Assembly (NCBI GenBank): GCA_914767715.1
Contig: OU612067.1
Coordinates: 14,699,001-14,763,000, forward strand
Reading direction: 5' to 3'
Source: Membranipora membranacea
Taxonomy: Eukaryota; Bryozoa; Gymnolaemata; Cheilostomatida; Membraniporidae
DNA length: 64,000 nt
The notes under the pieces: model-generated
What the model saw: the letters and a program-made list of their open reading frames with translations, nothing else
What the model was told of the DNA's origin: nothing
Databases searched by the model: none
Program-made: the position numbers and the translations under genes
Shown: positions 1,807-53,994 of the stretch, piece by piece
How positions within the stretch are numbered: position 1 is the first letter of the stretch
How the letters are laid out: each line of letters starts with the position of its first letter

Positions 1807-1809
1807 TTA
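1802..1809 (-). terminator. Poly(A) signal overlapping the CACHD1-like stop codon
   Basis: On the minus strand the stop TAA (1807-1809) runs straight into AATAAA (1802-1807, read in reverse complement). If used, the 3' UTR would be only about 15-30 nt. No transcript evidence is available, and an unused AATAAA by chance is possible in AT-rich DNA. Confidence 0.35.
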
Positions 1810-18598: not shown

Positions 18599-19393
18599 CT
18601 ACATTAATAGAGAGGCCAGCTCCATGCGTCGTGGTTGCAGCCTAGTGAATGTATCATAGACCTGATCAATATCTATTGCAAGGTCGCAGTGGATGTTGAT
18701 CAGAGCCAGAGAGTCGAGCCTTTCTGGCATCTGAGTTCTGCGTAGGTAGGTGTTGAGCCTCCGGAGAGTGCTAAAGGAGCGCTCACACTCGCATGTAGTT
18801 ACTGGCAATGTGGCTGCGATCTGTAGGAGGGTATTTATATTAGGATATATATCAGGGTCGGCCTGGTGCAGAGCATTTGTGACATTACTCGGACCTACCT
18901 GGGACCGCATCTCCCACCTTTGGTATTCATTGGTGATGAATACAGGTGATTGGAGGTCCTCCACATAGAGCTCAGTCAGGTCTCTTAGCTCCTGACTGGT
19001 AAGACTTCCCTCAACCAGTTTCAGCAGAGAGGCTGCAGTTTCTGACATTCCTATCAACATACAATACCAAATAAATAAATCATCTATCTTAATGTTTGAA
19101 ACCATTTTAATAACTCATTACTCAAGTTTGATAGGTATGTCAGTGTGAGAAATACATGCACTAGCTGGTATGTTGGTCAGTAAAGTCGGGAATAACTCAC
19201 GAGTGAACTGGCTGTCTAACTCCGAGAGAAGGTGGTCCAGGAAGGGAGTGTACACATTGATCTGATAATAAGTTAGGAGTGAGGTACTAGGGGTGTTATT
19301 CCGGTTAGCCATCCGCCCGCAAATCCTCGGTACTGTGGGGGAAACCCCTGCCATCTCAGAGAGACCTATCGCTATTTCATACCAGCTTGTCAC
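18599..19393 (-). pseudogene. hAT-superfamily transposase remnant with C-terminal dimerisation domain
   Basis: Two minus-strand open blocks (19118-19393, then 18599-19105) read as the 3' half of an animal hAT transposase of the type also found in P52rIPK and ZMYM1-like proteins. The upstream block has the RICGRMANRNNTPS stretch. The downstream block has the dimerisation signature CECERSFSTLRRLNTYLRR and LALINIH. They are broken by a stop and a short gap around 19,050-19,118, which may be a small intron or a disruption. No zinc-finger N-terminus, DDE catalytic core or terminal inverted repeats were seen, so this is a 5'-truncated relic. Confidence 0.85.
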
Positions 19394-22370: not shown

Positions 22371-25300
22371 ATGGCTGGTGTGGGAGACGAGATTGATCTG
22401 GAGGTTCACGATGGAGCAGATAGCCTGACAATGTCTTCAGATGAAAAACCAGTCACATCTCAAAAAGAAGCTTGTAAGTATATTTTAGTCACAGACAGTT
22501 TTTGTTTCAACTTGCCTAGTTGGGTTGATGAAGCTTTACAATAATTGCAAGGCAAGTTGAAACACAAAACACATTCACCTAAACCTTCACAAATTTTGGG
22601 TATTATTGCTATTCTCATGCACAAAGTTAAACTTGTGTCTGATGCTCAAATGACCCGGTGACGCATTTTATAGTTCGAACGCCAACATTGTATCTGTTTC
22701 AAACTGTCACAAACCCATCCGGTTGAATATATCACAGCCTGACGACTTTGTGGCAGCAAGCATTCATATTACAAACCCATCCAGAATGGCTTGTAATGCG
22801 TGAAATACCAACAGTGACTCCATCTAGATGGACTTGTGAAAGTTAATTTTGCTGTCTAAAAGTCAACTGGGTGCTTGTGCGCTCACTGGCAATTGCAAAA
22901 ATAGGTTTCCGGTTGGATTTTATCGCAGCGCTCCTCTCCGAATGCGTTTGGTATTATAATGTTTGCGGTTTCAAACCCACATTTTATGATGCTTGATATG
23001 AAGACCTAAGTCTCCTCAAGTATGGAAGTAGTCGTACTGTAAAGTTATGCGATCAGATTGTGACTGTTGTGCCTTCTCCAGTATCCGCACATGTGTTCAG
23101 CGATAAAAATATATCACACAACCAGCGCATAACAGCTTTAACAATATGGCTATAATTTTTTATTGTTTCATTAATACACAATGAGTTATCGGAATTGTTG
23201 AACCATCACGCCACTTTTCCTTATCAGTAAGTTCTAAGCAGACACTGAGGTGCCAATTTAGTTTGAAAGGTCTGTTATCAAAAGATTAGTGCAGCTGATC
23301 TAACATAGTTATCTACGTGTAGCAATAATTTTACAGTAATAATTTGTGAGCAGTCAAAAAGGCCAAAATCTGTCACACAAGAGTGGTTGGCATAGCTCTT
23401 TGGTATTACTGTAGAGATTTCAGTGACCTATATTATAACACTCAAATACTACTGCCAGTCAGAGAAATTACGCTCAGTGATTTCTGTGATAATATCTAAT
23501 AGAGGCTTCATGTCAAGCTAGATCTTTGGTATCATTACCCTAATTTTTATAATCATTTTTCCTTTGCCTTGCACCTCCACCAAACAGTGTTGTTCGCTCA
23601 GTGTGTATGAGGAGACAATTCTTAACAAGAACTTATGGCGTTGCGCCCATAGACAAAATGGTCTATGGTGATACCACTGACACTGTAGCCATGAACTTCA
23701 TCAACTTATAGTGAAAAATGTATTATGATTGAAATTCTTTCAAGCAATTGGAAAAAAAGTTGAAACCACAGCGACCTCACAGGCAAAAGTGTGCATATTG
23801 AATTCCGTATAGCTCAAAGCATAGTATTATGGGGCTGCAATCTTAGCGATATCTACGTAGTTACCGGCTTACTAGTTGACACTTTTGATGTCATCATCTA
23901 CTGCATTAATTTCATACCCTGATCTTGAAAATTGTGCAAGTTATTTGCCCAATGAGGTAAGAATTCTGAGATTAAAGCCTCAATTAGTTATCTTAGACTA
24001 CACTGAATTCAATGAGCACAAATTTGCCTGAGTTGAAGCAGTAGTTTGAATACTCTTTTTTTTTCACTCAGCCTCTGTGCTTATTGTGCTGTATGTCTCC
24101 TCTAGATTTCACAGATCGCTGAGCCAAACATTTGTATCATAAAGCCATAGACATCTAATATCAACCCTCTATCTCCTGCTCCGAAATAGGTACAGCAAAT
24201 AAATTTTGCACAGTTTTTTAGTGATGACGCTGGAAATGTTATTGATGGAAATAGACTGGTTAACATTGGTATCATAACCTTAATTATAATTATTATGTTT
24301 TCAGATTACAGTGTCTGGTATAGACATAGTTTGGAACCTGAGAACATCGACTTCCCGCAAGATGATGAGAACGTGCTTACCCGGTTATCCTTGTCCGATC
24401 TGACAGCTGCTACAAGTGGCCTCCATATCACACATATGATTATCAGAGGTGATATCCCACAAACTCTAAGTCAGTTAGCTCCTGATCTAAGATGCCTCAA
24501 ACCGAGAGAGATGCCACATTCTTATCAGCTACAAAGGTGAGTGTACCGTAGGTTTGCAAAGGATTTTAGAGTCATGTTGGAGATCTTGGTACAATGTGTG
24601 CGTTTTAGTGCATGATAGGTAAGCTCCCAAGTAACATGATAAGTGATATTGTAATGTGTAGGTAGAGGCGTCTAGAAGACAAGCAAACAGGGAAAAATTT
24701 GTTAGTAGCAAATAAATAAAAAATACAAACTTGTTAACACCTTAAGAACTCATTGCTTTAAAAGCAATGGTGACAAGGTTCGGTTGTTTCGATGATTTGG
24801 TACTGGGTAAAACATTGAAAAAATGTTTAACTTTAACCTGGCCTTGAGGCTTATAATTTATGGTTATCTTATCACTGTTTATGAATTATATAGTACAACG
24901 CGCCTCATTGCGAGTTATGCTAAATTCTATGATTTTGCCTATCATGGAAGAGCTTTAGTACCCATATCACCTGTGACAGGCTGGTAATTCCTCATTTGAC
25001 TTCACCTTGTCTTATTTTTTTATACAGTATTTGTTCACTGACAGCACTAGAGGAGTTAGATATAAGCGGCAATAAGAGGCTACAAACATTACCTGATGAT
25101 ATAGATACAATGAGGTCACTAAAGGTGATAAAGGCACTGGATTGTGATCTGTCTCATATACCTGATAGGTGAGTCATTTTTCTTTTATCAGTATCAGGCT
25201 AATTTATCATTTTAATCTGAAAGACTACGTAAAGGTCAAAGGAAGATATGGTCTGGCAGCTAGTTCTGCAGTCATCAAAAGTCATGTACTGAATTTAAGG

Positions 25301-28300
25301 TTTATGAAAGGGAAATATTATTTTCCTGTAAATATGCTGCCTGATGTTTGTTACCATATAAAAATGCAGACTTTGCTCATTATGAAAGAATTCACCTCTG
25401 ATCTATGACTAGCAGTTATCCGCTCATTATACTCTTCCTTTACCTTACTTTCATCACAGTATCTGTTCACTGCGAGCGCTAGAGGAGTTACATGTAGGAG
25501 GTAATAGGAAGCTGCAGACATTACCTGACAAAATAGGTATGGTGATGTCACTGAAGGGGCTTTATGCATGGAAATGTGATCTGTCTCATGTACCCAACAG
25601 GTGAGTAACCCTCAATTACCAGAATCAAGTGAGTGACGATGACCAACTCTGTCGGGTATGTAACCCATTTGACACTGGATACCCAAGCAGAACAGGTGCC
25701 CCTCTTTTACTCATTATAGCCCATATTTATTTTGTATGGAGTTACCCCATCCTGTTGAGGAAGGGGTCAACTCCATACAAAAAGTTCTTTGATTAATTCC
25801 CAATATTTTCAATTGATTTGTTTTTGACTTGACCTTTGTTACCTTGGATCTTAACTCACTAAACCAATGACTCATATTTGAGATGCCTTTTCGACATTGA
25901 AATCAGACTTTATATTTTATAAATAGTTAACTTCAATTACAGCAGTCATCGCAACAACAAAAAACAAATAGAGCTACATTACCAGAATAGTGTGATGATC
26001 GCTTTTGAGGTTTCTCTGAAAAGAACTGCCCATTTTTGCTTTCCTTCCTCATGTCGCCCTCATGTCCAAAAAAAACAAGGATGAATAATTCATTCGGTTG
26101 AACATTTCCGGAAAACATTGAAAATGACCCAGAATGAAAATGACCTGATGAAAATGACCTGAGAATGAAAATAAACTTAAAGTAGATCACAACACTGGAA
26201 TCACTAAATATGAATCAACTTGCAATTTGCCTTCACAGGTAGGCAACATACTCACCATTGAATATTCAAGATATTAGCCTTGGTTGTGCACCCCAGGGCA
26301 GTCAGCAGCCCTCAAACCCCAAAGGCTGTAATAAACTGCACTAAGTTGAAAAGCTATGATTTGTTTACCTTGACATATATTATACCGTGCAAGGACAGGT
26401 ACAGGTACAGGTAAACGTACATGAGGACTCTGAATTGTCACAAACGATTGGCTTGGGGGTTATCTTTTCTCGTTGTAGGAAGAGATAACTCCAAAATAAT
26501 GTGTCCTGTTTGTAGATTCTTGTTTATCCTGTAAATTCACTGTTTACTATTATAGTAAATTAAATTGGTTTAGTTTAAAGTATGAAATTTTCCATGAACT
26601 GCTATAGAAGTGAGGTTTTTAATCCATGGTATGACCAATCAGCCTGAATATAACTCATATGCTGTGTCCGCACATACATGCCTGACCCAGAAATCAGGAG
26701 GTTCCCACGGACGAACTCCAAACCTGGAGAACCACTCTGCATCCTGGAGCGAGGATGCAGTTCAACCGCATGTAACAGAGCACACCAGACATCCACTTCA
26801 CCATTACCTACATTCAAACCTCGTCACATCATCATCATCATCATCTTTGAAGAGGAGAGGGTTTTCCTCTCTTGGGTACAGGTACCGGGACCCATAGTAC
26901 TCATGCCGCACCCTATACCCATGCCCCATGAAATATTTTTAAGTGTGATTTCGAATTGTTTTCTATGATAATCAGTTATCAGCGAAATCTATTTACCCGT
27001 TGATAATTTACCTATAGGTATCTTGATGTCAGTGATATAATTTATAACTATGCCATTTAATTGTTATCTGTCAGAAGCGGCTATATCCTCATCTTACCTC
27101 ACATTGTGTATATTTATATTTCAGTATTTGTTCACTGACAGCACTAGAGGAGTTAGTTATAAAGGGTAACAAGAAGCTACAAAAATTACCTGAGCATATA
27201 GGTATGATGAGATCACTGACAATGTTACATGCATGGGACTGTGATCTGTCTCATATACCTGACAGGTGAGTCATTTCTCTGTTATCAGATTTTGGTGAGT
27301 GATGACGGTGATACAATCAATCATTAATAATATTTTTAAGTGTGATATCGAATTGTTTTCTATGATGATCAGTGATCAGCGAAATCTACTTTCTCTTTGA
27401 TAATTTACCTACAGGTATGTTGATGTCAGTGATTTAATTTATAACTATGCCATCTATATTGTTATCTGTCAGAAGCGGCTATTTCCTCATCTTACCTCAC
27501 ATTGTGTATATTTATATTTCAGTATTTGTTCACTGACAGCACTAGAGGAGTTAGTTATAAAGGGTAACAAGAAGCTACAAAAATTACCTGAGCATATAGG
27601 TATGATGAGATCACTGACAATGTTACATGCATGGGACTGTGATCTGTCTCATATACCTGACAGGTGAGTCATTTCTCTGTTATCAGATTTTGGTGAGTGA
27701 TGACGGTGATACAATCAATCATTAATAAAATTTTTAAGTTTGACGTCGAATTGTTTTCTATGATAATCAGTTATCAGCGAAATCTATTTTCTCTTTGATA
27801 ATTTACCTCTGTGACTGTGATCTGTTTCATATACCTGACAGGTGAGTCATTTCTCTGTTATCAGATTATGGTGAGTGATGACGGTGATAAAATCATTAAT
27901 ATTATTTTTAAGTGTGATAGGGATATGTTTTCTATGATAATCAGTTATCAGCGAAATCCATTAACCCGTTGATAATTTACCTATAGGTATGTTGATGTCA
28001 GTGATATAATTTATAACTATGACATCTAATTGTTATCTGTCAGAAGCGGCTATATCCTCATCGTACCTCACATTATTTATATTTCAGTATATGTTCACTG
28101 ACAGCACTAGAGGAGTTTTATATATTTGGTAACAAGAAGCTACAAAAATTACCTGAGCATATAGGTATGATGAGATCACTGACAAAGTTACATGCATGGG
28201 ACTGTGATCTGTCTCAGATACCTGACAGGTGAGTCATTTCTCTGTTTTCAAATTTTGGTTAGTGAAGACGGTGATATAATCAATCATTAATAATGTTTTT

Positions 28301-31300
28301 AAGTGTGATATAGAATTGTTTTCTATGATAATCAGTTATCAGAGAAATCTAATTTCTCTTTGATAATTTACCTGTATGTTGATGTCAGTGATATAATTTA
28401 TAACTATGCCGTCTTATTGTTATCTTCAGAAGCGGCTATATCCTCATCGTACCTCACATTATTTATATTTCAGTATTTGTTCACTGACAGTACTAGAGGA
28501 GTTACATATAGACGGTAACAAGAAGCTGCAAAAATTACCTGATGATATAGGTATGATGAGTTCACTGACAAAGTTATATGCATGGGAATGTGATCTGTCT
28601 CATATACCTGACAGGTGAGTAGTGTATCCTCTGCCGATTTTAGGTGAGTGGCGATATTGAGTGGTATCTTCATCGCCCACTCCTGATCACTTGCCTTGTT
28701 TGGCTTGGCCTAAAGCTTGTGTCTGGCGGCTCTCCTCTTCCATCTTGGGCGCTTCATCAACAATAATATTCTGCATAACCTTTGGGCCTTGTAGCTGCAC
28801 TGGTCTACTCATTGCCGTGGAATGTTCGCTGGCTTTCTGCAATTGCTATCAGTTGCATTTTTCTGACAGTGGTTGGATTTTTTTCTGTATGGGGTATTTT
28901 GTGTGATATGTGGCACTGCTCATCAGTGCAGATTTAGGTGATGAGAGGCTAGGCCATTTCTCCAGTGATTTTAATGACCAAAATTGTGCATGTTAATTGA
29001 AAATACATGCATTTTATGTTTCTCAAATCGATAACTGTAACAATATCATGAATATATGTAACACCTATAAATGGAGCACTAAGGTGAACATTATTGACTA
29101 AATCAATTGATATGGATTAATGCTAGCCTGGTAAGACAGGATGAGATTGATGATTGATTATTTGGTCGAGATTCAATGACAACCTGATAGATGTTACACA
29201 TAGTTTCTCTGACTATTGAGGTTCATGTATATAAGCATTATTTGGGCGGGAACTTTGACCTGCAGGCGTTATTGCCTCCATGTTGGAGTTTCTGGGCTGA
29301 TCTGTGGAGCACCCTACTTCATCATTCAGAGCCAGACAATACTCTCATACCGCGTATATTCTTGATGACCATATTGCCAAAATATATATACACCTACAAT
29401 TATATCATTCACACAGACTCCTGTGTTTTGGTTATTGTCTTCCTTTTGTATTTATACATTTTGTTTGCGGGTCATTGGTTTGAAGGGGTCAACTCCATAC
29501 AAAAAAGTGCTTTGTTTATTTCCTCATATTTTCAATCAAAATCAAAATCTCCTGTGCACAGCAGTACAAATAAGGTGTGATCACACTCACCAGAGTAGCG
29601 TGATGTGCTCTTGAGGGTTCTCTGAAAAGAACTGCCCACTTTTGCTTTTCTCCCTCATGTCGCCCTCATGTCCAAAAAAAACAAGGATGAATAATTCATT
29701 CGGTTGAACATTTCCGGAAAACATTGAAAATGACCCAGAATGAAAATGACCTGATGAAAATGACCTGAGAATGAAAATAAACTTAAGTTGACCTTGACAT
29801 ATATTATACCGTGCAAGGAGTTTAAATCAGTCTACAGGTAAACGTACATGAGGACTCTGAATTGTCACAAACGATTGGCTTGGGGGTTATCTTTTCTCGT
29901 TGTATGAAGAGATAACTCCAAAGTAATGTGTCCTGTTTGTAGATTCTTGAGTATCCTGTAAATTCACTGTTTACTATTATAGTATAGTAAATTAAATTGG
30001 TTTAGTTTAAAGTATGAAATTTTCCATGAAATGCTATAGAAGTGAGGTTTTTAATCCACGGTATGACCAATCAGCCTGAATATAACTCATATGCTGTGTC
30101 CACACATACATGCCTGACCCAGAAATCAGGAGGTTCCCGCGGACGAACTCCAAACCTGGAGAACCGCTCTGCATCCTGGAGTGAGGATGCAGTTCAACCG
30201 CATGTAACAGAGCACACCAGACATCCACTTCACCATTACCTACATTCAAACCTCGTCACATCATCATCATCATCTTTGAAGCGGAGAAGGTTTTCCTCTC
30301 TTGGGTACAGGTACCGGGACCCATGGTACTCATGCCGCACCCTATACCCATGCCCCATGAAATATTTTTAAGTGTGTTATCGAATTGTTTTCTATGATAA
30401 TCAGTTATCAGCGAAATCTATTTTCTCTTTGATAATTTACCTATAGGTATGTTGATGTCAGTGATATAATTTATAACTATGCCATTTAATTGTTATCTGT
30501 CAGAAGCGGCTATATCCTCATCTTACCTCATATTGTGTATATTTATATTTCAGTATTTGTTCACTGTCAGCACTAGAGGTGTTATCTGTAAAAGGAAATA
30601 AGAAGCTGCAAACATTACCTGATGATATAGGTATGCTAAGATCACTGACAAAGTTATATGCATGGGACTGTGATTTGTCTCATATACCTGACAGGTGAGT
30701 CATTTCTCTGTTATCAAATTTTGGTCAGTGATGACGGTGATACAATCATTAATAATATTTTTAAGTGTGATATCGAATTGTTTTCTATGATAATCAGTTA
30801 TCAGCGAAATCTATTTACCCGTTGATATTTTACCTATATGTATCTTGATGTCAGTGATATAATTTATCACTATGCCATTTAATTGTTATCTGTCAGATGC
30901 GGCTATATCCTCATCTTACCTCACATTGTGTATATTTATATTTCAGTATTTGTTCACTAACAGCACTAGAGGAGTTAGATATAAACGGTAACAAGAAGCT
31001 AGAAACATTACCTGACGATATAGGTATGCTAAGATCACTGACAAAGTTATATGCATGGGACTGTGATTTGTCTCATATACCTGACAGGTGAGTCATTTCT
31101 CTGTTATCAAATTTTGGTCAGTGATGACGGTGATACAATCATTAATAATATTTTTAAGTGTGATATCGAATTGTTTTCTATGATAATCAGTTATCAGCGA
31201 AATCTATTTACCCGTTGATATTTTACCTATATGTATCTTGATGTCAGTGATATAATTTATCACTATGCCATTTAATTGTTATCTGTCAGAAGCGGCTATA

Positions 31301-34300
31301 TCCTCATCTTACCTCACATTGTGTATATTTATATTACAGTGTTTGTTCACTGACAGCACTAGAGGAGTTATCCGTACATGGTAACCAGAAGCTACAAACA
31401 TTACCTGATGATATAGGTATGCTAAGATCACTGACAAAGTTATATGCATGGGACTGTGATCTGTCTCATATACCTGACAGGTGAGTCATTTCTCGGTTAT
31501 CAAATTTTGGTCAGTGATGACGGTGATACAATCATTAATAATATTTTTAAGTGTGCTATCGAATTGTTTTCTATGATAATCAGTTATCAGCGAAATCTAT
31601 TTACCCGTTGATAATTTACCTATAGGTATCTTGATGTCATTGATATAATTTATAGCTATGCCATTTAATTGTTATCTGTCAGAAGCGGCTATATCCTCAT
31701 CTTACCTCACATTGTGTATATTTATATTTCAGTGTTTGTTCACTGACAGCACTAGAGGAGTTATCCGTACATGGTAACCAGAAGCTACAAACATTACCTG
31801 ATGATATAGGTATGCTAAGATCACTGACAAAGTTATATGCATGGGACTGTGATCTGTCTCATATACCTGACAGGTGAGTCATTTCTCGGTTATCAAATTT
31901 TGGTCAGTGATGACGGTGATACAATCATTAATAATATTTTTAAGTGTGCTATCGAATTGTTTTCTATGATAATCAGTTATCAGCGAAATCTATTTACCCG
32001 TTGATAATTTACCTATAGGTATCTTGATGTCATTGATATAATTTATAGCTATGCCATTTAATTGTTATCTGTCAGAAGCGGCTATATCCTCATCTTACCT
32101 CACATTGTGTATATTTATATTTCAGTATTTGTTCACTGACAGCACTAGAGGAGTTATCTGTACGAGGTAACAAGAAGCTACAAACATTACCTGATGATAT
32201 AGGTATGCTAAGATCACTGACAAAGTTATATGCATGGGACTGTGATCTGTCTCATATACCTGACAGGTGAGTCATTTCTCGGTTATCAAATTTTGGTCAG
32301 TGATGACGGTGATACAATCATTAATAATATTTTTAAGTGTGCTATCGAATTGTTTTCTATGATAATCAGTTATCAGCGAAATCTATTTACCCGTTGATAT
32401 TTTACCTATATGTATCTTGATGTCAGTGATATAATTTATAACTATGCCATTTAATCGTTATCTGTCAGAAGCGGCTATATCCTCATCGTACCTCACATTA
32501 TTTATATTTGATAATGATAATCAGTTATCAGCGAAATCTATTTACCCGTTGATATTTTACCTATATGTATCTTGATGTCAGTGATATAATTTATAACTAT
32601 GCCATTTAATTGTTATCTGTCAGATGCGGCTACATCCTCACTTTACCTCACCTTGTGTATATTTATATTTCAGTATTTGTTCACTGACAGCACTAGAGGA
32701 GTTATATATAAAGGGTAACAAGAAGCTACAAAAATTACCTGAGCATATAGGTATGATGAGATCACTGACAAAGTTACATGCATGGGACTGTGATCTGTCT
32801 CATATACCTGACAGGTGAGTCATTTCTCGGTTATCAAATTTTGGTCAGTGATGACGGTGATACAATCATTAATAATATTTTTAAGTGTGCTATCGAATTG
32901 TTTTCTATGATAATCAGTTATCAGCGAAATCTATTTACCCGTTGATATTTTACCTATATGTATCTTGATGTCAGTGATATAATTTATCACTATGCCATTT
33001 AATTGTTATCTGTCAGATGCGGCTATATCCTCATCTTACCTCACATTGTGTATATTTATATTTCAGTATTTGTTCACTAACAGCACTAGAGGAGTTAGAT
33101 ATAAACGGTAACAAGAAGCTAGAAACATTACCTGACGATATAGGTATGCTAAGATCACTGACAAAGTTATATGCATGGGACTGTGATTTGTCTCATATAC
33201 CTGACAGGTGAGTCATTTCTCTGTTATCAAATTTTGGTCAGTGATGACGGTGATACAATCATTAATAATATTTTTAAGTGTGATATCGAATTGTTTTCTA
33301 TGATAATCAGTTATCAGCGAAATCTATTTACCCGTTGATATTTTACCTATATGTATCTTGATGTCAGTGATATAATTTATCACTATGCCATTTAATTGTT
33401 ATCTGTCAGAAGCGGCTATATCCTCATCTTACCTCACATTGTGTATATTTATATTACAGTGTTTGTTCACTGACAGCACTAGAGGAGTTATCCGTACATG
33501 GTAACCAGAAGCTACAAACATTACCTGATGATATAGGTATGCTAAGATCACTGACAAAGTTATATGCATGGGACTGTGATCTGTCTCATATACCTGACAG
33601 GTGAGTCATTTCTCGGTTATCAAATTTTGGTGAGTGATGACGGTGATACAATCATTAATAATATTTTTAAGTGTGCTATCGAATTGTTTTCTATGATAAT
33701 CAGTTATCAGCGAAATCTATTTACCCGTTGATAATTTACCTATAGGTATCTTGATGTCAGTGATATAATTTATAGCTATGCCATTTAATTGTTATCTGTC
33801 AGAAGCGGCTATATCCTCATCTTACCTCACATTGTGTATATTTATATTTCAGTATTTGTTCACTGACAGCACTAGAGGAGTTATCTGTACGAGGTAACAA
33901 GAAGCTACAAACATTACCTGATGATATAGGTATGCTAAGATCACTGACAAAGTTATATGCATGGGACTGTGATCTGTCTCATATACCTGACAGGTGAGTC
34001 ATTTCTCGGTTATCAAATTTTGGTCAGTGATGACGGTGATACAATCATTAATAATATTTTTAAGTGTGCTATCGAATTGTTTTCTATGATAATCAGTTAT
34101 CAGCGAAATCTATTTACCCGTTGATATTTTACCTATATGTATCTTGATGTCAGTGATATAATTTATAACTATGCCATTTAATCGTTATCTGTCAGAAGCG
34201 GCTATATCCTCATCGTACCTCACATTATTTATATTTGATAATGATAATCAGTTATCAGCGAAATCTATTTACCCGTTGATATTTTACCTATATGTATCTT

Positions 34301-37300
34301 GATGTCAGTGATATAATTTATAACTATGCCATTTAATTGTTATCTGTCAGATGCGGCTACATCCTCACTTTACCTCACCTTGTGTATATTTATATTTCAG
34401 TATTTGTTCACTGACAGCACTAGAGGAGTTATATATAAAGGGTAACAAGAAGCTACAAAAATTACCTGAGCATATAGGTATGATGAGATCACTGACAAAG
34501 TTACATGCATGGGACTGTGATCTGTCTCATATACCTGACAGGTGAGTCATTTCTCGGTTATCAAATTTTGGTCAGTGATGACGGTGATACAATCATTAAT
34601 AATATTTTTAAGTGTGCTATCGAATTGTTTTCTATGATAATCAGTTATCAGCGAAATCTATTTACCCGTTGATAATTTACCTATAGGTATCTTGATGTCA
34701 GTGATATAATTTATAGCTATGCCATTTAATTGTTATCTGTCAGAAGCGGCTATATCCTCATCTTACCTCACATTGTGTATATTTATATTTCAGTATTTGT
34801 TCACTGACAGCACTAGAGGAGTTATATATAAAGGGTAACAAGAAGCTACAAAAATTACCTGAGCATATAGGTATGATGAGATCACTGACAAAGTTACATG
34901 CATGGGACTGTGATCTGTCTCATATACCTGACAGGTGAGTTATTTTTCTGTCATCAAATTTTGGTGAATGAGGATGAACAACCTGTTTTGGTGAGTGATT
35001 ATAGCTACCCCATATGTTATATTACACATGTTTTAAATGGGATATCAAATTTTTACCTATAGGTATGTTGATGTCAGTGATATAATTTATAACTATGACA
35101 TTTAATTGTTATCTGTCAGAAGCGGCTATATCCTCATCGTACCTCACATTATTTATATTTCAGTATTTGTTCACTGTCAGCACTAGAGGAGTTATCTGTA
35201 GGAGGTAACAAGAAGCTACAAACATTACCTGATGATATAGGTATGATAAGTTCACTGACAAAGTTATATGCAAGGGACTGTGATCTGTCTCATATACCTG
35301 ACAGGTGAGTCATTTCTCGGTTATCAAATTTTGGTCAGTGATGACGGTGATACAATCAATCATTAAGAATATTTTTAAGTGTGATATCGAATTGTTTTCT
35401 ATGATAATCAGTTATCAGCGAAATCTATTTACCCGTTGATATTTTACCTATATGTATCTTGATGTCAGTGATATAATTTATAACTATGCCATTTAATTGT
35501 TATCTGTCAGAAGCGGCTATATCCTCATCTTACCTCACATTGTGTATATTTATATTTCAGTATTTGTTCACTGACAGCACTAGAGGAGTTATCTGTACGA
35601 AGTAACAAGAAGCTACAAACATTACCTGATGATATAGGTATGCTAAGATCACTGACAAAGTTATATGCATGGGACTGTGATCTGTCTCATATACCTGACA
35701 GGTGAGTCATTTCTCTGTTATCAAATTTTGGTGAGTGATGACGGTGATACAATCATTAATAATATTTTTAAGTGTGATATCGAATTGCTTTCTATGATAA
35801 TCAGTTATCAGCAAAATCCATTTACCCGTTGATTATTTACCTCTAGGTATCATGATGTCAGTGATATAATTTATAGCTATGCCATTTAATTGTTATCTGT
35901 CAGAAGCGGCTATATCCTCATCTTACCTCACATTGTGTATATTTATATTTCAGTATTTGTTCACTGACAGCGCTAGAGCGGTTACATATAAACGGTAACA
36001 AGAAGCTAGAAACATTACCTGATGATATAGGTATGATGAGTGCACTGAAGGTGATAATGGCATGGGACTGTGATCTGTCTCATATACCTGACAGGTGAGT
36101 CATTTTTCTGTTATCAAATTTTGGCGAGTGATGACGGTCATACAATCAATCATTAATAATATTTTTAAGTGTGATATCGAATTGTTTTCTATGATGATCA
36201 GTGATCAGCGAAATCTACTTTCTCTTTGATAATTTACCTATAGGTATGTTGATGTCAGTGATTTAATTTATAACTATGCCATCTATATTGTTATCTGTCA
36301 GAAGCGGCTATATCCTCATCTAACCTCACATTGTGTATATTTATATTTCAGTATTTGTTCACTGACAGCACTAGAGGAGTTACATATAAACGGTAACAAG
36401 AAGCTAGAAACATTACCCGATGATTTTGGTATGATTAGTACACTGAAGGTGATAAAGGCATGGGACTGTGATCTGTCTCATATACCTGACAGGTGAGTCA
36501 TTTCTCTGTTATCAAATTTTGGTGAGTGATGACGGTGATACAATCATTAATAATATTTTTAAGTGTGATATCGAATTGCTTTCTATGATAATCAGTTATC
36601 AGCAAAATCCATTTACCCGTTGATTATTTACCTCTAGGTATCATGATGTCAGTGATATAATTTATAGCTATGCCATTTAATTGTTATCTGTCAGAAGCGG
36701 CTATATCCTCATCTTACCCCACATTGTGTATATTTATATTTCAGTATTTGTTCACTGACAGCACTAGAGGAGTTATATATAAACGGTAACAAGAAGCTAG
36801 AAACATTACCCGATGATTTTGGTATGATTAGTACACTGAAGGTGATAAAGGCATGGGACTGTGATCTGTCTCATATACCTGACAGGTGAGTCATTTCTCG
36901 GTTATCAAATTTTGGTCAGTGATGACGGTGATACAATCATTAATAATATTTTTAAGTGTGCTATCGAATTGTTTTCTATGATAATCAGTTATCAGCGAAA
37001 TCTATTTACCCGTTGATAATTTACCTATAGGTATCTTGATGTCAGTGATATAATTTATAGCTATGCCATTTAATTGTTATCTGTCAGAAGCGGCTATATC
37101 CTCATCTTACCTCACATTGTGTATATTTATATTTCAGTATTTGTTCACTGACAGCACTAGAGGAGTTATATATAAAGGGTAACAAGAAGCTACAAAAATT
37201 ACCTGAGCATATAGGTATGATGAGATCACTGACAAAGTTACATGCATGGGACTGTGATCTGTCTCATATACCTGACAGGTGAGTTATTTTTCTGTCATCA

Positions 37301-40300
37301 AATTTTGGTGAATGAGGATGAACAACCTGTTTTGGTGAGTGATTATAGCTACCCCATATGTTATATTACACATGTTTTAAATGGGATATCAAATTTTTAC
37401 CTATAGGTATGTTGATGTCAGTGATATAATTTATAACTATGACATTTAATTGTTATCTGTCAGAAGCGGCTATATCCTCATCGTACCTCACATTATTTAT
37501 ATTTCAGTATTTGTTCACTGTCAGCACTAGAGGAGTTATCTGTAGGAGGTAACAAGAAGCTACAAACATTACCTGATGATATAGGTATGATAAGTTCACT
37601 GACAAAGTTATATGCAAGGGACTGTGATCTGTCTCATATACCTGACAGGTGAGTCATTTCTCGGTTATCAAATTTTGGCGAGTGATGACGGTCATACAAT
37701 CAATCATTAAGAATATTTTTAAGTGTGATATCGAATTGTTTTCTATGATAATCAGTTATCAGCGAAATCTATTTACCCGTTGATATTTTACCTATATGTA
37801 TCTTGATGTCAGTGATATAATTTATAACTATGCCATTTAATTGTTATCTGTCAGATGCGGCTATATCCTCATCTTACCTCACATTGTGTATATTTATATT
37901 TCAGTATTTGTTCACTGACAGCACTAGAGGAGTTAGATATAGGCGGTAACAAGAAGCTACAAACATTACCTGATGATATAGGTATGCTAAGATCACTGAC
38001 AAAGTTATATGCATGGGACTGTGATCTGTCTCATATACCTGACAGGTGAGTCATTTCTCTGTTATCAAATTTTGGTGAGTGATGACGGTGATACAATCAT
38101 TAATAATATTTTTAAGTGTGATATCGAATTGCTTTCTATGATAATCAGTTATCAGCAAAATCCATTTACCCGTTGATTATTTACCTCTAGGTATCATGAT
38201 GTCAGTGATATAATTTATAGCTATGCCATTTAATTGTTATCTGTCAGAAGCGGCTATATCCTCATCTTACCTCACATTGTGTATATTTATATTTCAGTAT
38301 TTGTTCACTGACAGCGCTAGAGCGGTTACATATAAACGGTAACAAGAAGCTAGAAACATTACCTGATGATATAGGTATGATGAGTGCACTGAAGGTGATA
38401 ATGGCATGGGACTGTGATCTGTCTCATATACCTGACAGGTGAGTCATTTTTCTGTTATCAAATTTTGGCGAGTGATGACGGTCATACAATCAATCATTAA
38501 TAATATTTTTAAGTGTGATATCGAATTGTTTTCTATGATGATCAGTGATCAGCGAAATCTACTTTCTCTTTGATAATTTACCTATAGGTATGTTGATGTC
38601 AGTGATTTAATTTATAACTATGCCATCTATATTGTTATCTGTCAGAAGCGGCTATATCCTCATCTAACCTCACATTGTGTATATTTATATTTCAGTATTT
38701 GTTCACTGACAGCACTAGAGGAGTTACATATAAACGGTAACAAGAAGCTAGAAACATTACCCGATGATTTTGGTATGATTAGTACACTGAAGGTGATAAA
38801 GGCATGGGACTGTGATCTGTCTCATATACCTGACAGGTGAGTCATTTCTCTGTTATCAAATTTTGGTGAGTGATGACGGTGATACAATCATTAATAATAT
38901 TTTTAAGTGTGATATCGAATTGCTTTCTATGATAATCAGTTATCAGCAAAATCCATTTACCCGTTGATTATTTACCTCTAGGTATCATGATGTCAGTGAT
39001 ATAATTTATAGCTATGCCATTTAATTGTTATCTGTCAGAAGCGGCTATATCCTCATCTTACCCCACATTGTGTATATTTATATTTCAGTATTTGTTCACT
39101 GACAGCACTAGAGGAGTTATATATAAACGGTAACAAGAAGCTAGAAACATTACCCGATGATTTTGGTATGATTAGTACACTGAAGGTGATAAAGGCATGG
39201 GACTGTGATCTGTCTCATATACCTGACAGGTGAGTCATTTCTCGGTTATCAAATTTTGGTCAGTGATGACGGTGATACAATCATTAATAATATTTTTAAG
39301 TGTGCTATCGAATTGTTTTCTATGATAATCAGTTATCAGCGAAATCTATTTACCCGTTGATAATTTACCTATAGGTATCTTGATGTCAGTGATATAATTT
39401 ATAGCTATGCCATTTAATTGTTATCTGTCAGAAGCGGCTATATCCTCATCTTACCTCACATTGTGTATATTTATATTTCAGTATTTGTTCACTGACAGCA
39501 CTAGAGGAGTTATATATAAAGGGTAACAAGAAGCTACAAAAATTACCTGAGCATATAGGTATGATGAGATCACTGACAAAGTTACATGCATGGGACTGTG
39601 ATCTGTCTCATATACCTGACAGGTGAGTTATTTTTCTGTCATCAAATTTTGGTGAATGAGGATGAACAACCTGTTTTGGTGAGTGATTATAGCTACCCCA
39701 TATGTTATATTACACATGTTTTAAATGGGATATCAAATTTTTACCTATAGGTATGTTGATGTCAGTGATATAATTTATAACTATGACATTTAATTGTTAT
39801 CTGTCAGAAGCGGCTATATCCTCATCGTACCTCACATTATTTATATTTCAGTATTTGTTCACTGTCAGCACTAGAGGAGTTATCTGTAGGAGGTAACAAG
39901 AAGCTACAAACATTACCTGATGATATAGGTATGATAAGTTCACTGACAAAGTTATATGCAAGGGACTGTGATCTGTCTCATATACCTGACAGGTGAGTCA
40001 TTTCTCGGTTATCAAATTTTGGCGAGTGATGACGGTCATACAATCAATCATTAAGAATATTTTTAAGTGTGATATCGAATTGTTTTCTATGATAATCAGT
40101 TATCAGCGAAATCTATTTACCCGTTGATATTTTACCTATATGTATCTTGATGTCAGTGATATAATTTATAACTATGCCATTTAATTGTTATCTGTCAGAT
40201 GCGGCTATATCCTCATCTTACCTCACATTGTGTATATTTATATTTCAGTATTTGTTCACTGACAGCACTAGAGGAGTTAGATATAGGCGGTAACAAGAAG

Positions 40301-43300
40301 CTACAAACATTACCTGATGATATAGGTATGCTAAGATCACTGACAAAGTTATATGCATGGGACTGTGATCTGTCTCATATACCTGACAGGTGAGTCATTT
40401 CTCTGTTATCAAATTTTGGTGAGTGATGACGGTGATACAATCATTAATAATATTTTTAAGTGTGATATCGAATTGCTTTCTATGATAATCAGTTATCAGC
40501 AAAATCCATTTACCCGTTGATTATTTACCTCTAGGTATCATGATGTCAGTGATATAATTTATAGCTATGCCATTTAATTGTTATCTGTCAGAAGCGGCTA
40601 TATCCTCATCTTACCTCACATTGTGTATATTTATATTTCAGTATTTGTTCACTGACAGCCCTAGAGCGGTTACATATAAACGGTAACAAGAAGCTAGAAA
40701 CATTACCTGATGATATAGGTATGATGAGTGCACTGAAGGTGATAATGGCATGGGACTGTGATTTGTCTCATATACCTGACAGGTGAGTCATTTTTCTGTT
40801 ATCAAATTTTGGCGAGTGATGACGGTCATACAATCAATCATTAATAATATTTTTAAGTGTGATATCGAATTGTTTTCTATGATGATCAGTGATCAGCGAA
40901 ATCTACTTTCTCTTTGATAATTTACCTATAGGTATGTTGATGTCAGTGATTTAATTTATAGCTATGCCATTTAATTGTTATCTGTCAGAAGCGGCTATAT
41001 CCTCATCTTACCCCACATTGTGTATATTTATATTTCAGTATTTGTTCACTGACAGCACTAGAGGAGTTATATATAAACGGTAACAAGAAGCTAGAAACAT
41101 TACCCGATGATTTTGGTATGATTAGTACACTGAAGGTGATAAAGGCATGGGACTGTGATCTGTCTCATATACCTGACAGGTGAGTCATTTCTCTGTTATC
41201 AAATTTTGGTGAGTGATGACGGTGATACAATCATTAATAATATTTTTAAGTGTGATATCGAATTGCTTTCTATGATAATCAGTTATCAGCAAAATCCATT
41301 TACCCGTTGATTATTTACCTCTAGGTATCATGATGTCAGTGATATAATTTATAGCTATGCCATTTAATTGTTATCTGTCAGAAGCGGCTATATCCTCATC
41401 TTACCTCACATTGTGTATATTTATATTTCAGTATTTGTTCACTGACAGCACTAGAGGAGCTACGTATAAAGGGTAACAAGAAGCTACAAACATTACCTGA
41501 TGATATTGGTACGATGAGTTCACTGAAGGTGATAAAGGCATGGGGCTGTGATCTGTCTCATATACCTGACAGGTGAGTCATTTTTCCGTTTTCCCGTGAT
41601 ACCAGTAGTACGATTTTTCATTGTGGTATCAAAATGTTATCTGTGAGAAGCAGATATATCCACATCTTACCTCACCTTGATTATATTTATATTACAGTGT
41701 TTGTTCACTGACAGCACTAGAGGAGTTATATATAAACGGTAACAAGAAGCTACTAAAATTACCTGATGATATTGGTATGATGAGATCACTGACAAAGTTA
41801 TATGCATGGGACTGTGATCTGTCTCATATACCTGACAGGTGAGTCATTTCTCAGATATCAGATTTTGGTGAGTGATGACGGTGATACAATCAATCATTAA
41901 TAATATTTTTAAGTGTGATATCGAATTGTTTTCTATGATAATCAGTTATCAGCGAAATTTATTTTCTCTTTGATAATTTACCTCTGTGACTTTGATGTTT
42001 CTCATATACCTGACAGGTGAGTCATTTCTCAGTTATCAGATTTTGGTGGGTGATGACGGTGATACAATCAATCATAAATAATATTTTTAACTGTGATATT
42101 GAATTGTTTTCTATGATAATCAGTTATCAGCGAAACCCATTTACCCGTTGATAATTTACCTATGGGTATCTTGATGCCAGTGATATAATTTATAACTATG
42201 CCATTTAATTGTTATGTGTCAGAAGCGGCTATATCCTCATCTTACCTCACATTGTCTATATTTATATTTCAGTATTTGTTCACTGTCAGCACTAGAGGAG
42301 TTATCTGTACGAGGTAACAAGAAGCTACAAACATTACCTGATGATATAGGTATGCTAAGATCACTGACAAAGTTATATGCATGGGACTGTGATCTGTCTC
42401 ATATACCTGACAGGTGAGTCATTTCTCTGTTATCAGATTTTGGTGAGTGATGACGGTGATAGAATCATTAATAATATTTTTAAGTGTGATATCGAATTGT
42501 TTTCTATGATAATCAGTTATCAGCGAATTCTATTTTCTCTTTGATAATTTACCTATAGGTATCTTGATGTCAGTGATATAATTTATAGCAATGCCATTAA
42601 ATTGTTATCTGTCAGAGGCGGCAATATCCTCATCTTACCTCACATTGTGTATATTTATATTTCAGTATTTGTTCACTGACAGCACTAGAGGAGTTACATA
42701 TAAACGGTCACAAGAAGCTACAAGCATTACCTGATGATATAGGTACGATGAGTACACTGACAAAGTTATATGCATGGGACTGTGATCTGTCTCATATACC
42801 TGACAGGTGAGTCATTTCTCTGTAATCATTAATAATATTTTTAAGTGTGATATCGAATTGTTTTCTATGATAATCAGTTATCAGCGAAATCTATTTACCC
42901 GTTGATAATATACCTATAGGTATGTTGATGTCAGTAATACAATTGTTAACTATGACATCTAATTGTTATCTGTGAGAAGCAGTTATATCCACATCTTACC
43001 TCACCTTGTCTATATTTATATTTCAGTATTTGTTCTCTGACAGCACTAGAGGTGCTAGATGTAAAGGGTAACAAGAGGGTACAAACATTACCTGATGATA
43101 TAGGTATCATGAGTTCACTGAAGGTGATAAAGGCATGGGACTGTGATCTGTCTCATATACCTGACAGGTGAGTTAATTTTTTTTTATCAGATTTCGGTAA
43201 GTGATTATAGCTACCTTATATGTTATATTAGACTATGTAGATAGTGGTATCACCGTAGCAGATAAGAGTATATTTTCCATTTAACTATTTAGCTTTAGAT

Positions 43301-44602
43301 TTCTTGATAAGAGAAATACAATTTCTGTTTGTGATATCAAATTGTTGTCTTTGAGACAGTTTTCTCCGCATCTTACCTCACCTTGTCTATATTTATATTT
43401 CAGTGTCTGTTCACTGACAGCACTTGAGGAGTTACATATAAACGGTAACAAGAGGCTACAAACGTTACCTGATGATATAGGTATCATGAAATCACTGAAA
43501 GTGATAAAGGCATGGGCCTGTGATCTGTCTCATATACCTGACAGGTGAGTTAATTTTTTGTTATCGGATTTCGGTGAGTGATTATATCATACTATGTAGA
43601 TAGTGGTATCATCGTAGCAGATAAGAGTATATTTTCCATTTAACTATCTAGCTTTAGATTTCTTGATGAGAGTAATACAAATTCTATTTGTGATATCAAA
43701 TTGTTATCTTTCAGACAGTTATATCCACATCTTACCTCACCTTGATTATATTTATATTTCAGTATTTGTTCACTGACAGCACTAGAGGAGTTACATATAA
43801 ACTATAACCAGAAGCTACAAGCATTACCTGATGATATAGGTATGATGAGTTCACTGAAGGTCTCATGGTCAAGCAGGAATACTGACCGGGAATCACGACT
43901 GCAAAATACCTATTACTGATATTCTGCAGGAGCTGAGAGCTATCCTCCCTGAGCATGTCCCTTTGGTAAGTTGACTGGTCTTGTTCGCATAGTCTTTAAG
44001 ACAAAGTTTTCCTACATTTCTTTGTTCAAGATTCGAGATTGATGACACAGACACAGACTCAATATGGAGCACAAAGAAAGAAAGAATTCCATGTAGCAAA
44101 ATCTAAGAATTGAAATTTGGTCGGAGGGGTCTTTTTCCTCCGAGCATGTAAAATAAATAATGTTAAATAATCGGTCGGTTTTGCTTTTCAGATTCTTCTG
44201 ATTCAGGCCTGTCAACCATATCGTCCAGCTGCTCACCGTAAACAAAATGATGCTGGTGCCGTAGATCCTTCCAAGAAACCTTACATTGTGCTTGAAAGGC
44301 CACATACCCTGCTACTCATGTCAACAGTGGTTGGAGGGATGTCTGTCAGAGGAGCATTCACAGGAGCAATGGCTCAACAGTTTGCTAATGCTGATGGTAA
44401 AACAAATATCAATGATATGGTCACCAATGCAATAATCGACATGAAGAAGAAAGAAACAGACGGGCACAATCTGTCTCCAGAGTCACGAAATACTCTTCAG
44501 AAAAGTCTAGTGCTACCACCAGGTGTGGTAAGCACAGATCTGCCTCAAAGTCAAGAGAGACTTTCTAAAGAGAGCCTCCTGAGGAAGCTTGGTGTACAGT
44601 AG
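22371..44602 (+). CDS. Giant LRR protein with caspase-like C-terminus
   Basis: Rebuilt model: start ATG 22371 (exon 22346-22473), exon 24305-24536, 39 LRR exons of 141 bp each from 25028 to 43544, then 43860-43965 and 44192-44602 (stop TAG). All joins keep phase and the sum is 6,351 nt, or 2,116 residues. Each LRR exon gives 47 residues, for example CSLTALEEL followed by NKKLQTLPDDIGM and CDLSHIPD, which is two LRRs. The end reads SHGQAG, then LILLIQACQ, then RPHTLLLMST. This matches the His-Gly box, Cys box and small-subunit start of C14 caspases. The N-terminal 110 residues have no domain I recognise. There is no signal peptide or membrane helix, so the protein is probably cytosolic. The front half of a caspase large subunit is absent. 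How many LRR exons enter one mRNA is unknown, because any can be skipped in frame. Confidence 0.82.
24305..24536 (+). CDS. Second coding exon of the LRR-caspase-like gene
   Basis: The acceptor is TTTTCAG and the donor is AAAG/GTGAGT. It enters with one base carried over from the 22473 donor and leaves in phase 2, exactly as needed for the first LRR exon. The protein is acidic (EPENIDFPQDDEN) and ends with PREMPHSYQLQ, which looks like the cap before the first LRR. I do not recognise a domain. Confidence 0.75.
25731..25782. repeat. Intronic hairpin repeat
   Basis: TTTGTATGGAGTTACCCC is mirrored by GGGGTCAACTCCATACAAA. The right arm recurs at 29487-29507 within another intron of the same gene, so this is a dispersed small element. 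Confidence 0.75.
25981..26940 (+). repeat. Non-LRR intron insertion, copy 1
   Basis: A block of about 0.8-0.96 kb is shared with 29589-30362: TCTCTGAAAAGAACTGCC, CATTCGGTTGAACATTTCCG, ATGTGTCCTGTTTGTAGATT and CAGGTACCGGGACCCAT appear in the same order. It ends where the standard LRR intron sequence (ATATTTTTAAGTGTG) begins. Copy 1 carries extra sequence around 26,190-26,370. The nature of the element is unknown. It includes a short (ATC)n run. Confidence 0.8.
27811..27841 (+). pseudogene. Vestigial 3' end of an LRR exon
   Basis: GTGACTGTGATCTGTTTCAT and ATACCTGACAG/GTGAG match only the last 30 bases of an LRR exon with its donor. There is no exon front or acceptor. It is a relic of unequal recombination. 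Confidence 0.75.
28615..30553. other. Long intron between LRR exons 6 and 7
   Basis: This is an unusually long intron for the array. It contains about 1 kb of unique sequence with a 129-codon plus-strand frame (29191-29580) that I do not recognise, then the second copy of the non-LRR insertion (29589-30362). Ordinary LRR intron sequence resumes afterwards. Confidence 0.6.
29589..30362 (+). repeat. Non-LRR intron insertion, copy 2
   Basis: Second copy of the block at 25981-26940, collinear and nearly identical through much of its length but lacking part of the middle. It suggests that a large stretch of the locus, not just single exons, was duplicated. Confidence 0.8.
32126..34793 (+). repeat. 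1,727-bp tandem duplication inside the LRR array
   Basis: Exons at 32126 and 33853, and at 32674 and 34401, are the same pairs shifted by exactly 1,727 bp. Both copies contain the same enlarged intron (32267-32673 and 33994-34400), in which about 155 bp of intron sequence is repeated without an exon between. Confidence 0.9.
34794..41572 (+). repeat. 2,344-bp six-exon higher-order repeat, nearly three copies
   Basis: Exon starts 34794, 35164, 35954, 36352, 36745 and 37138 recur at +2,344, and again at +4,688 for most. Copies are almost identical in introns as well as exons. The third copy lacks one unit: 40642 is followed directly by 41039, while the earlier copies have an extra exon between. 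The nearly identical copies imply very recent expansion, or an assembly effect. Confidence 0.9.
41981..42016 (+). pseudogene. Second vestigial LRR exon 3' end
   Basis: CTGTGACTTTGATGTTTCTC and ATACCTGACAG/GTGAG form a decayed exon end, related to the relic at 27811-27841 and placed in the same kind of intron context. Confidence 0.65.
43763..43965 (+). CDS. Chimeric LRR/caspase exon with two splice readings
   Basis: The sequence begins as a normal LRR exon (to CTGAAG at 43859) and then becomes caspase sequence in a different frame. Reading A uses AG/G at 43858-43860 as an acceptor. The previous exon's AG plus G gives Arg, then SHGQAGILTGNHDCKIP, so the catalytic His-Gly box is kept. Reading B keeps the LRR half-exon, uses GT at 43860 (GTCTCA) as a donor and the acceptor TTCTGCAG before 43930. 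It joins in frame at ELRAILPEH and loses the His box. Both feed exon 44192 in phase 0. Neither splice site is strong. Confidence 0.65.
44192..44602 (+). CDS. Caspase-like terminal exon (Cys box and small-subunit region)
   Basis: Terminal exon after the acceptor TTGCTTTTCAG. It opens with ILLIQACQPYR, where QAC is the caspase active-cysteine box (family consensus QACRG; here Gln replaces Arg). A linker with Asp (GAVDPSKKP) follows, where processing caspases are cleaved. Then comes HTLLLMSTVVGG and a helix-rich end resembling a small subunit. The usual small-subunit arginine region is replaced by MSVRGAFTG. The exon has the Cys, but substrate-pocket residues look changed, so proteolytic activity is uncertain. 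Confidence 0.75.
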   Translation: MLLIQACQPYRPAAHRKQNDAGAVDPSKKPYIVLERPHTLLLMSTVVGGMSVRGAFTGAMAQQFANADGKTNINDMVTNAIIDMKKKETDGHNLSPESRNTLQKSLVLPPGVVSTDLPQSQERLSKESLLRKLGVQ

Positions 44603-46175: not shown

Positions 46176-46620
46176 TAAAGTAAAGACAGCCAATGAGAAT
46201 GTTTGGTTTAAAACAGACTGCGTATCATAATTATCTTAAGCCAACATGATGGTTTGGCTTAAAATAGACTACGTGTCATAGTGCTTCAGCCAATGAGTTT
46301 GTCTTGTGTACTATTTCCACATAAGGTGCAATCGTGCAATCAATGATGTAAGAAAGACTGAGAGCAGCACATTTCATTTACAGGGAGAACATCACCACAC
46401 CCGCGACAAAGCAGCACAAGGATGAAGGATAAGAATTTCCACATAAGGTGCAATCGTGCAATCGTTGATGTAAGAAAGACTGAGAGCAAAACATCTTTTT
46501 TACAGGGAGAACATCACCACACCCGCGATAAAGCAGCACAAGGATGAAGGTTCAGAGTCTTGGGAATGATGCAAGATTTCAGCAAGCACCACCGGAGGGT
46601 ATAAAAGGAGGAAAATTCGA
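46176..46620 (+). promoter_or_regulatory. Promoter-like block: CCAAT boxes, tandem repeats and TATA box
   Basis: Two GCCAATGAG boxes (about 46188 and 46288) are followed by two copies of a repeat of about 116 bp with a 122-bp period (46313-46428 and 46435-46550). A strong TATA box, GGTATAAAAGG, lies at 46599-46609. A downstream AATAAA is near 46935. No gene with matching exons follows, so this may be the U3 region of a solo LTR or degraded retroelement instead of a host promoter. Confidence 0.55.
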
Positions 46621-53425: not shown

Positions 53426-53994
53426 CGTTGTATGGGACATGTCTTACAGTGCTCATGCGGCCCCTACAGCACAAACAACAATACGTTATAGGCCTGAGTG
53501 CTGTAATACATGTCCCATGTAGCACTCGCTCACTGAGAAAACGAGACCTGATGGGACGATATACATTCTCAGTGGAGAAATTTGGGAATGAAATTATCTA
53601 ACTGACCAAGTGAGTGACAATTTTGAGCAAGGCGATAGTGATAATTGGCTCTAGTAAAGCATCTCTCATTCTAATTGAAAGACCCGTCCTGTATCATAGG
53701 CAAAATGCAGGCTTAAAAGCCCAAATGCCCATATTTTTCTCGTCAAAATAGGCATCAGTTACAAGTATGAATTCCAAATTGGTTTACTTCACCAGTCTTC
53801 ATGATCAATGAATGTAACAAAATCTACAAAGATCAGTCACTGGCCTAAGGCTCTAGTCCTAGTCTGGTCCCTACAAGTAGGTAAATATTTACTGTCGCTG
53901 GATTAGCTGCACTGAGCAGCGACATTGATTACATCTAGGTGTATCACCCTATTCATATCTGTATATGGTTTCTAATATAAGTGACCCCTTGCAG

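Follow-up and report, generated by a model that had tools for sequence, protein, structure and literature searches.

The bryozoan Membranipora membranacea possesses an array of leucine-rich repeat (LRR) exons that is real, young and selected, and that resides in an animal genome. The array lies within a stretch of 64,000 nucleotides (contig OU612067.1 of assembly GCA_914767715.1, hereafter the window, with positions counted from its first letter), in which 39 complete LRR exons, each of them exactly 141 bp long, follow one another on the + strand from 25028 to 43544. The explanation that we favour for the locus as a whole, and which we consider reasonably probable, is that of a recombining array maintained under selection, with an LRR-only product following the rearrangement of its junction with downstream caspase exons. 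Here we describe the architecture of the array, its growth and variation, and the junction at its 3' end, and discuss them in the context of comparable repeat systems.

Architecture of the LRR exon array

The exons, their phases and the repeats are directly visible in the DNA. All 39 LRR exons are entered in phase 2 and left in phase 2 and are open in that frame; the donor GTGAGT directly follows 39 of 39, and CAG precedes each of them, as it does all 40 seed matches; a truncated 40th unit is located at 43763-43859. A sequence-only reading of the same DNA had described 39 symmetric-phase exons of 141 bp, which the exact lengths, open frames and splice sites bear out, and had called the array modular and expandable, a view that is upheld by the 2-2 phases, the equal exon lengths and the recent block duplications detailed below. 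Each exon encodes two LRRs of 23-24 residues with the unit consensus ICSLTALEELxIxGNKKLQTLPDDIGMM / xSLTKLYAWDCDLSHIPDS, and there are 23 distinct sequences among the 39 exons. The 39 introns that follow LRR exons range from 125 to 1,939 nt with a mode of 252 nt (17 of 39), while exon length is constant throughout. Five joined LRR exons exceed the Pfam cut-offs of LRR_14 (106.3 bits, cut-off 40), LRR_4 (73.3, cut-off 27), LRR_1 (65.3, cut-off 20.6) and LRR_8 (58.4, cut-off 27), which places the units amongst the leucine-rich repeat proteins. From the sequence we infer that the exons of the array all belong to one transcript.

All features of the gene are encoded on the + strand. A candidate first coding exon beginning MAGVGDEIDLEV is located at 22371-22473; ahead of it, the frame remains open as far as an acceptor whose end lies at 22345, and the true N-terminus may therefore lie further upstream. 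Exon 2 (24305-24536) encodes an N-terminal region with no Pfam match and is joined to the first LRR exon in phase 2. LRR exons 1 to 6 occupy 25028-25168, 25460-25600, 27125-27265, 27523-27663, 28088-28228 and 28474-28614, and LRR exons 7 and 8 occupy 30554-30694 and 30947-31087. LRR exons 9 (31340-31480) and 10 (31733-31873) belong to 393-bp units that are identical over their full 393 bp, and LRR exon 11, of the SVRG type, is found at 32126-32266. LRR exons 12 to 17 follow at 32674-32814, 33067-33207, 33460-33600, 33853-33993, 34401-34541 and 34794-34934. The array continues through the block repeats described in the next section and closes with LRR exons 34 (41432-41572), 35 (41698-41838), 36 (42273-42413), 37 (42666-42806), 38 (43027-43167) and 39 (43404-43544), after which the truncated 40th unit stands.

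Two further relics are present between complete units. Orphan 3' ends of LRR exons, the first at 27813-27841 (a deleted unit) and the second at 41988-42016, have retained intact GTGAGT donors and share a deletion breakpoint; they lie some 14 kb from one another. The two longest LRR introns have a stretch of about 770 bp in common (26363-27124 and 29787-30553, 95% identical), which was probably carried along by unit duplication and whose final 193 bp are ordinary unit intron.

Growth of the array

Ordered by protein type, the units read ABCCDEFGHHIJGHIJJKLMNOJKPMNOJKPMOQRSTUV, an order which shows that cassettes such as G-H-I-J and K-x-M-N-O-J were copied as blocks. The clearest case is a higher-order repeat of 2,344 bp containing six exons. 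Its first copy (35164-37507) comprises LRR exons 18 to 23 at 35164-35304, 35561-35701, 35954-36094, 36352-36492, 36745-36885 and 37138-37278, and its second copy (37508-39851) comprises LRR exons 24 to 29 at 37508-37648, 37905-38045, 38298-38438, 38696-38836, 39089-39229 and 39482-39622. A partial third copy starts with LRR exon 30 (39852-39992), followed by LRR exons 31 (40249-40389), 32 (40642-40782) and 33 (41039-41179); its first 1,187 bp equal the second copy at 1,180 of 1,186 aligned bases. Such near-identity indicates that the growth of the array is very recent.

The first and second copies differ at only 10 positions, all of which fall within a single patch of 267 bp (35335-35601), and six of the 10 affect codons 11-14 of exon 19, which read SVRS in the first copy and DIGG in the second. 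De novo clustered mutation was considered for these six changes and set aside: exon 19 and unit 11 have the same base at nine of the 10 patch sites, so that a short exchange between units is the simpler account. The states found in exon 19 are mostly the common ones and those of exons 25 and 31 the rare ones, and the change may thus instead lie in exons 25 and 31, whose DIGG codons (35592-35601 compared to 37936-37945) have no other source within the array. On the evidence of this one assembly, unequal crossing-over combined with short exchange would account for the growth of the array.

Scaffold conservation and diversity at predicted contact residues

The pattern of variation between units is likewise observed directly. 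Divergence was calculated for those 31 of the 39 units whose introns measure 215-260 nt, the other eight being dropped. Amongst these, mean pairwise divergence per base is 0.486 at codons 11 and 13, 0.229 at the ten codons predicted to be exposed and 0.205 at codons 33, 35, 37 and 38, compared to 0.116 in the introns, 0.073 at the codons not predicted to be exposed and only 0.017 at the second positions of the latter. The ten codons, which include 11 and 13, we take to be the concave strand face, placed by means of the LxxLxLxxN pattern. Between units, exon and intron divergence are weakly correlated (r=0.18). When the exposed label was permuted over the 46 codons of the 39 exons, the observed diversity was reached in 12 of 20,000 trials; the exposed-codon sets were fixed after the variation pattern was known, and neither this permutation nor the parsimony tests that follow are blind.

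Parsimony on a tree built from the introns assigns the most steps to codon 13 (25), codon 11 (17) and codon 35 (15), followed by codon 28 (13), which is not predicted to be exposed, and codons 33 and 32 (12 each). Compared to intron sites, step numbers are higher at codons 11 and 13 (p=1e-5) and at the ten exposed codons (p=0.004) and lower at non-exposed second positions (p=4e-6), with the qualification that recombination between units violates the tree and that intron steps are under-counted. The third position of codon 13 is also highly variable (12 steps); together with the rank of codon 28 this suggests that local exchange may add diversity beyond that expected from selection on amino acids. 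Both the divergence and the parsimony comparisons thus place the diversity at the presumed concave LRR sites.

Pooled over the 23 distinct exons, pN/pS amounts to 0.125/0.139 across the entire exon and to 0.106/0.129 outside codons 10-14, in both cases less than 1; for codons 10-14 it exceeds 1 (0.286/0.223). The value for the entire exon is a point against the explanation that we favour. Simulated drift under a star phylogeny, set to half of the intron pairwise divergence, leads to an expectation of about 8.5 of 23 distinct exons with a stop codon; the observed number is zero, an outcome that occurred in a fraction of 0.0005 of 2,000 simulations. The comparison between units points to a conserved scaffold bearing diversified predicted contact residues, and the concentration of diversity on predicted concave positions lends indirect support to the putative recognition role of the product, which we regard as likely.

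The caspase-like end and the junction at 43860

The truncated 40th unit ceases to resemble the others at 43857-43861. The sequence from 43861 onwards is SHGQAGILTGNHDCKIPITDILQELRAILPEHVPL, followed by a GTAAGT intron and then by ILLIQACQPY...; within this, 43861-43929 reads SHGQAGILTGNHDCKIPITDILQ and is in frame with the caspase exon. The first caspase segment (43861-43965) is of the p20 part, includes SHG and has its GTAAGT donor at 43966, and the last exon (44192-44602) contains the QACQP motif, a p10-like part and the stop codon TAG. The match to Pfam Peptidase_C14 (PF00656) scores 27.4 bits with the SHG segment and 21.6 bits without it, against a cut-off of 21.4, and covers profile positions 79-231 of 233. 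The score is modest; with the SHG segment it passes the gathering score of Peptidase family C14, but the domain is incomplete, its first third being missing as judged by the start of the match at position 79. Both the truncation of this similarity and the one-base offset between the caspase and LRR frames are direct observations.

When the exon 43763-43965 is delimited by its canonical acceptor (43762) and donor (43966), LRRs and caspase are out of frame with each other and the LRR frame runs into a stop, TGA 43917; the two are in frame only via weak alternative splice sites. The donor AAG|GTCTCA at 43860 scores -4.2, compared to 6.8-9.2 for five LRR donors, 8.3 for exon 2, 4.2 for the caspase donor at 43966 and 2.5 for exon 1, and 42% of the 3,804 + strand GTs that were scored outscore it, all scores having been computed from general base frequencies of splice sites. 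The sequence-only reading had stated that the gene closes exactly at 6,351 nt; the apparent path gives 6,378 nt, requires the GTCTCA donor and drops the SHG segment. It had further proposed about 78 LRRs that end in a caspase-like region. This number of LRRs stands; the transition to the caspase, however, is not in frame when canonical splice sites are used, and the domain itself is truncated.

Within the scope of the searches made, the caspase tail has no relative. There was no sequence match amongst solved chains, no relative among 775 candidates of about 233-742 aa sharing five-residue words, and, with a chimeric query, none among the best 7,994 word-sharing candidates scored (about 513-1,631 aa). 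NCBIfam yielded no match, be it for the tail or for the N-terminal region. A fragment of human caspase-3, representing the missing N-terminal third, gave one non-significant match elsewhere (E 0.63); this query also missed the known tail and is thus insensitive. The single-sequence fold of the last exon is uninformative (pLDDT 40.9). The junction joins a repeat unit to sequence that occurs once in the window. In view of the weak donor at 43860, the loss of SHG and the poor alternative acceptor, we attribute the junction to a rearrangement in this allele or, with lower probability, to a misjoin; the link between LRRs and caspase is probably broken in this sequence.

Interpretation of the locus

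In the explanation that we favour, 141-bp exons would be added, deleted and re-mixed through unequal crossing-over and through short exchanges from one unit to another. Selection would keep the LRR frame and the splice sites and favour new residues on those strands that form the concave, ligand-facing side. The length and the binding face of the product would change quickly between alleles. The downstream caspase exons suggest an ancestral form in which LRRs were coupled to a caspase; in the assembled allele, a rearrangement at about 43860 would have cost the caspase domain its first third and introduced a frame shift, so that the main product is probably LRR-only and ends at TGA 43917. This product is most likely a long LRR recognition or assembly protein and probably intracellular; because the N-terminus is not fixed, a cytoplasmic location can only be guessed.

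Two other readings retain a fused product. The locus may encode a functional LRR-caspase receptor if exon 39 skips the truncated unit 40 and splices to an acceptor at 43859/43860, which would give ...HIPD-R-SHGQAG... with both motifs in frame and allow recognition to trigger the caspase directly. Such splicing respects phase 2 and leaves the frame open as far as the stop at 44602, it retains SHG and QAC, the caspase exons are stop-free in their own frame, and amphioxus has LRRs-caspase hybrids, as described in parts of PMC2575513. We nevertheless regard a functional fusion as unlikely: the acceptor would fall within LRR sequence and be preceded by 50% pyrimidines, against 62.5-81% at six other acceptors, exon 40 has its own acceptor 97 bases upstream, and positions 1-78 of the 233 in the caspase profile are still missing. 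The form apparently put forward by the sequence-only reading, in which the GTCTCA donor of exon 40 at 43860 and a 70-nt intron (43860-43929) yield a 6.4-kb LRR-caspase-like open reading frame, does close its frame at 6,378 nt, but its donor is very weak (-4.2) and it forfeits the caspase segment with SHG, and we consider it highly improbable.

The broken 3' junction, the truncated caspase and the two orphan exon ends might instead be signs of a decaying or non-expressed locus, a minisatellite derived from coding sequence that grows neutrally after the 3' part of the gene was lost. The newest duplications are too similar for a test of constraint, and a very recent loss of function is compatible with signals that reflect past selection; against this, 39 exons are free of stops and of length changes and their non-exposed second positions are almost invariant, which makes decay an improbable reading. 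In a near-identical repeat, in which blocks are more than 99% identical and the junction falls within a repeat unit, it is conceivable that assembly has gone wrong, be it in the number of copies or at the LRR/caspase junction. The unit types are, however, ordered and distinguishable and the sequence on the far side of the junction is unique in the window, and we hold such a partial artefact to be quite improbable.

Comparison with known repeat systems

The sequence-only reading did not know the arrangement from a described family. LRRs-caspase hybrids have been described in amphioxus (PMC2575513) and arrays of equal-length phase-2 LRR exons in brown algae (PMC11378527) and Tetrahymena (PMC6564038), in the portions of these papers on which we draw. 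The LRR-ROCO genes of brown algae contain 72-bp phase-2 exons that encode one LRR each and are shuffled; their products are candidate immune receptors, and four sites on the concave face are under positive selection (excerpts of PMC11378527, which also cites Zambounis et al. 2012). The bryozoan array resembles them in its tandem phase-2 LRR exons of equal length and its concave-site diversity, and differs in that the algal exons of 72 bp with one LRR are combined with ROC-COR, whereas the animal exons measure 141 bp and hold two LRRs. A Pfam scan for ROC-COR after the bryozoan LRRs, covering the three + frames of 43.5-54 kb, had no match; as it did not recover the known caspase exon either, it is insensitive. 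Tetrahymena possesses tandem 90-bp LRR exons with phase-2 introns in thousands of genes, for which unequal crossing-over has been proposed (sections of PMC6564038). Here the equal-length exons and the phase-2 introns are shared and growth is apparently similar, in contrast to exon length (90 versus 141 bp) and to the ciliate host; the word 'concave' is absent from the Tetrahymena paper (PMC6564038). Given the difference in exon length and the absence of a ROC-COR match in what is an insensitive scan, the bryozoan array belongs to neither type.

The amphioxus hybrids have a conserved QACXG pentapeptide, and a direct link from recognition to apoptosis has been proposed for them (passages of PMC2575513). 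The bryozoan locus has in common with them the presence of LRRs together with a caspase domain, and differs in its truncated domain, its QACQP in place of QACXG and its frame shift at the junction; the passages on these hybrids in PMC2575513 make no mention of exon arrays.

By sequence, the LRRs match chains in the PDB that include the cytoplasmic proteins SHOC-2 and LRRD1; the top match is bacterial and plant receptors also rank high. The LxxLxLxxN...LPxxI repeat is common to LRRs of the SHOC-2, LRRD1 and LRRC8 type, in which the repeat number is, to our knowledge, fixed and near-identical exon arrays do not occur. A protein search with the LRRs retrieved 246 generic LRR proteins from plants, bacteria and animals, none of them bryozoan-named among the 120 listed, many of which are without names. 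Among the matches listed in the open-licence literature there was no report of an LRR exon array in a bryozoan. No NACHT domain of the NLR type scored above cut-off in ten selected upstream ORFs of 62-106 aa (11.9-21.5 kb, one on the - strand), for which Pfam gave two matches below cut-off and none above; nor was NACHT found in the three + frames of 10.0-24.6 kb with X at stops, a scan format that also missed the known caspase exon. The exact 29-base exon/donor pattern is absent from viral contigs, and Rfam and tRNA scans were empty.

Genomic surroundings

Upstream of the LRR gene, exons of CACHD1 (VWFA and cache domain-containing protein 1) occupy 1473-10004 on the - strand. The best of 38 matches is to the cheilostome bryozoan Watersipora subatra (441 bits; 526 of 860 aligned residues identical, 61%), and the next is to a mollusc (281 bits). 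This neighbour thus indicates a bryozoan genome and speaks against a sponge as the source. A C-terminal fragment of a hAT transposase is located at 18602-19114 on the - strand (PF05699, 34.1 bits). Downstream there is a 122-bp tandem duplication at 46313-46556, and the exons of an RS/RD-rich CCCH zinc-finger gene extend over 53929-63666 on the + strand (zf-CCCH, 32.3 bits); by eye this gene resembles ZC3H13.

Implications

Symmetric LRR exon arrays are already known from brown algae, where concave residues are selected, and from ciliates. What the bryozoan locus would provide is a very young animal array in which a single patch of change is readable, and hence a clean case for the growth of a repertoire from exon cassettes. 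The caspase join, in turn, serves as a warning that splice sites need to be scored whenever gene models are closed across repeats.

Bryozoans are listed among the animals with allo-incompatibility in the part of PMC8195603 that deals with them, and as they are colonial, a fast-diversifying LRR gene of variable length represents a testable candidate for immune or colony recognition. A bolder picture, which we offer tentatively and consider rather doubtful, is that of a colonial animal with a germline-shuffled LRR recognition locus, whose alleles would differ in length and in concave surface, would serve self/non-self or pathogen recognition and would once have been wired to a caspase. Were this the case, the repertoire of a single colony could be multiplied further if transcripts differed in the exons that they include.
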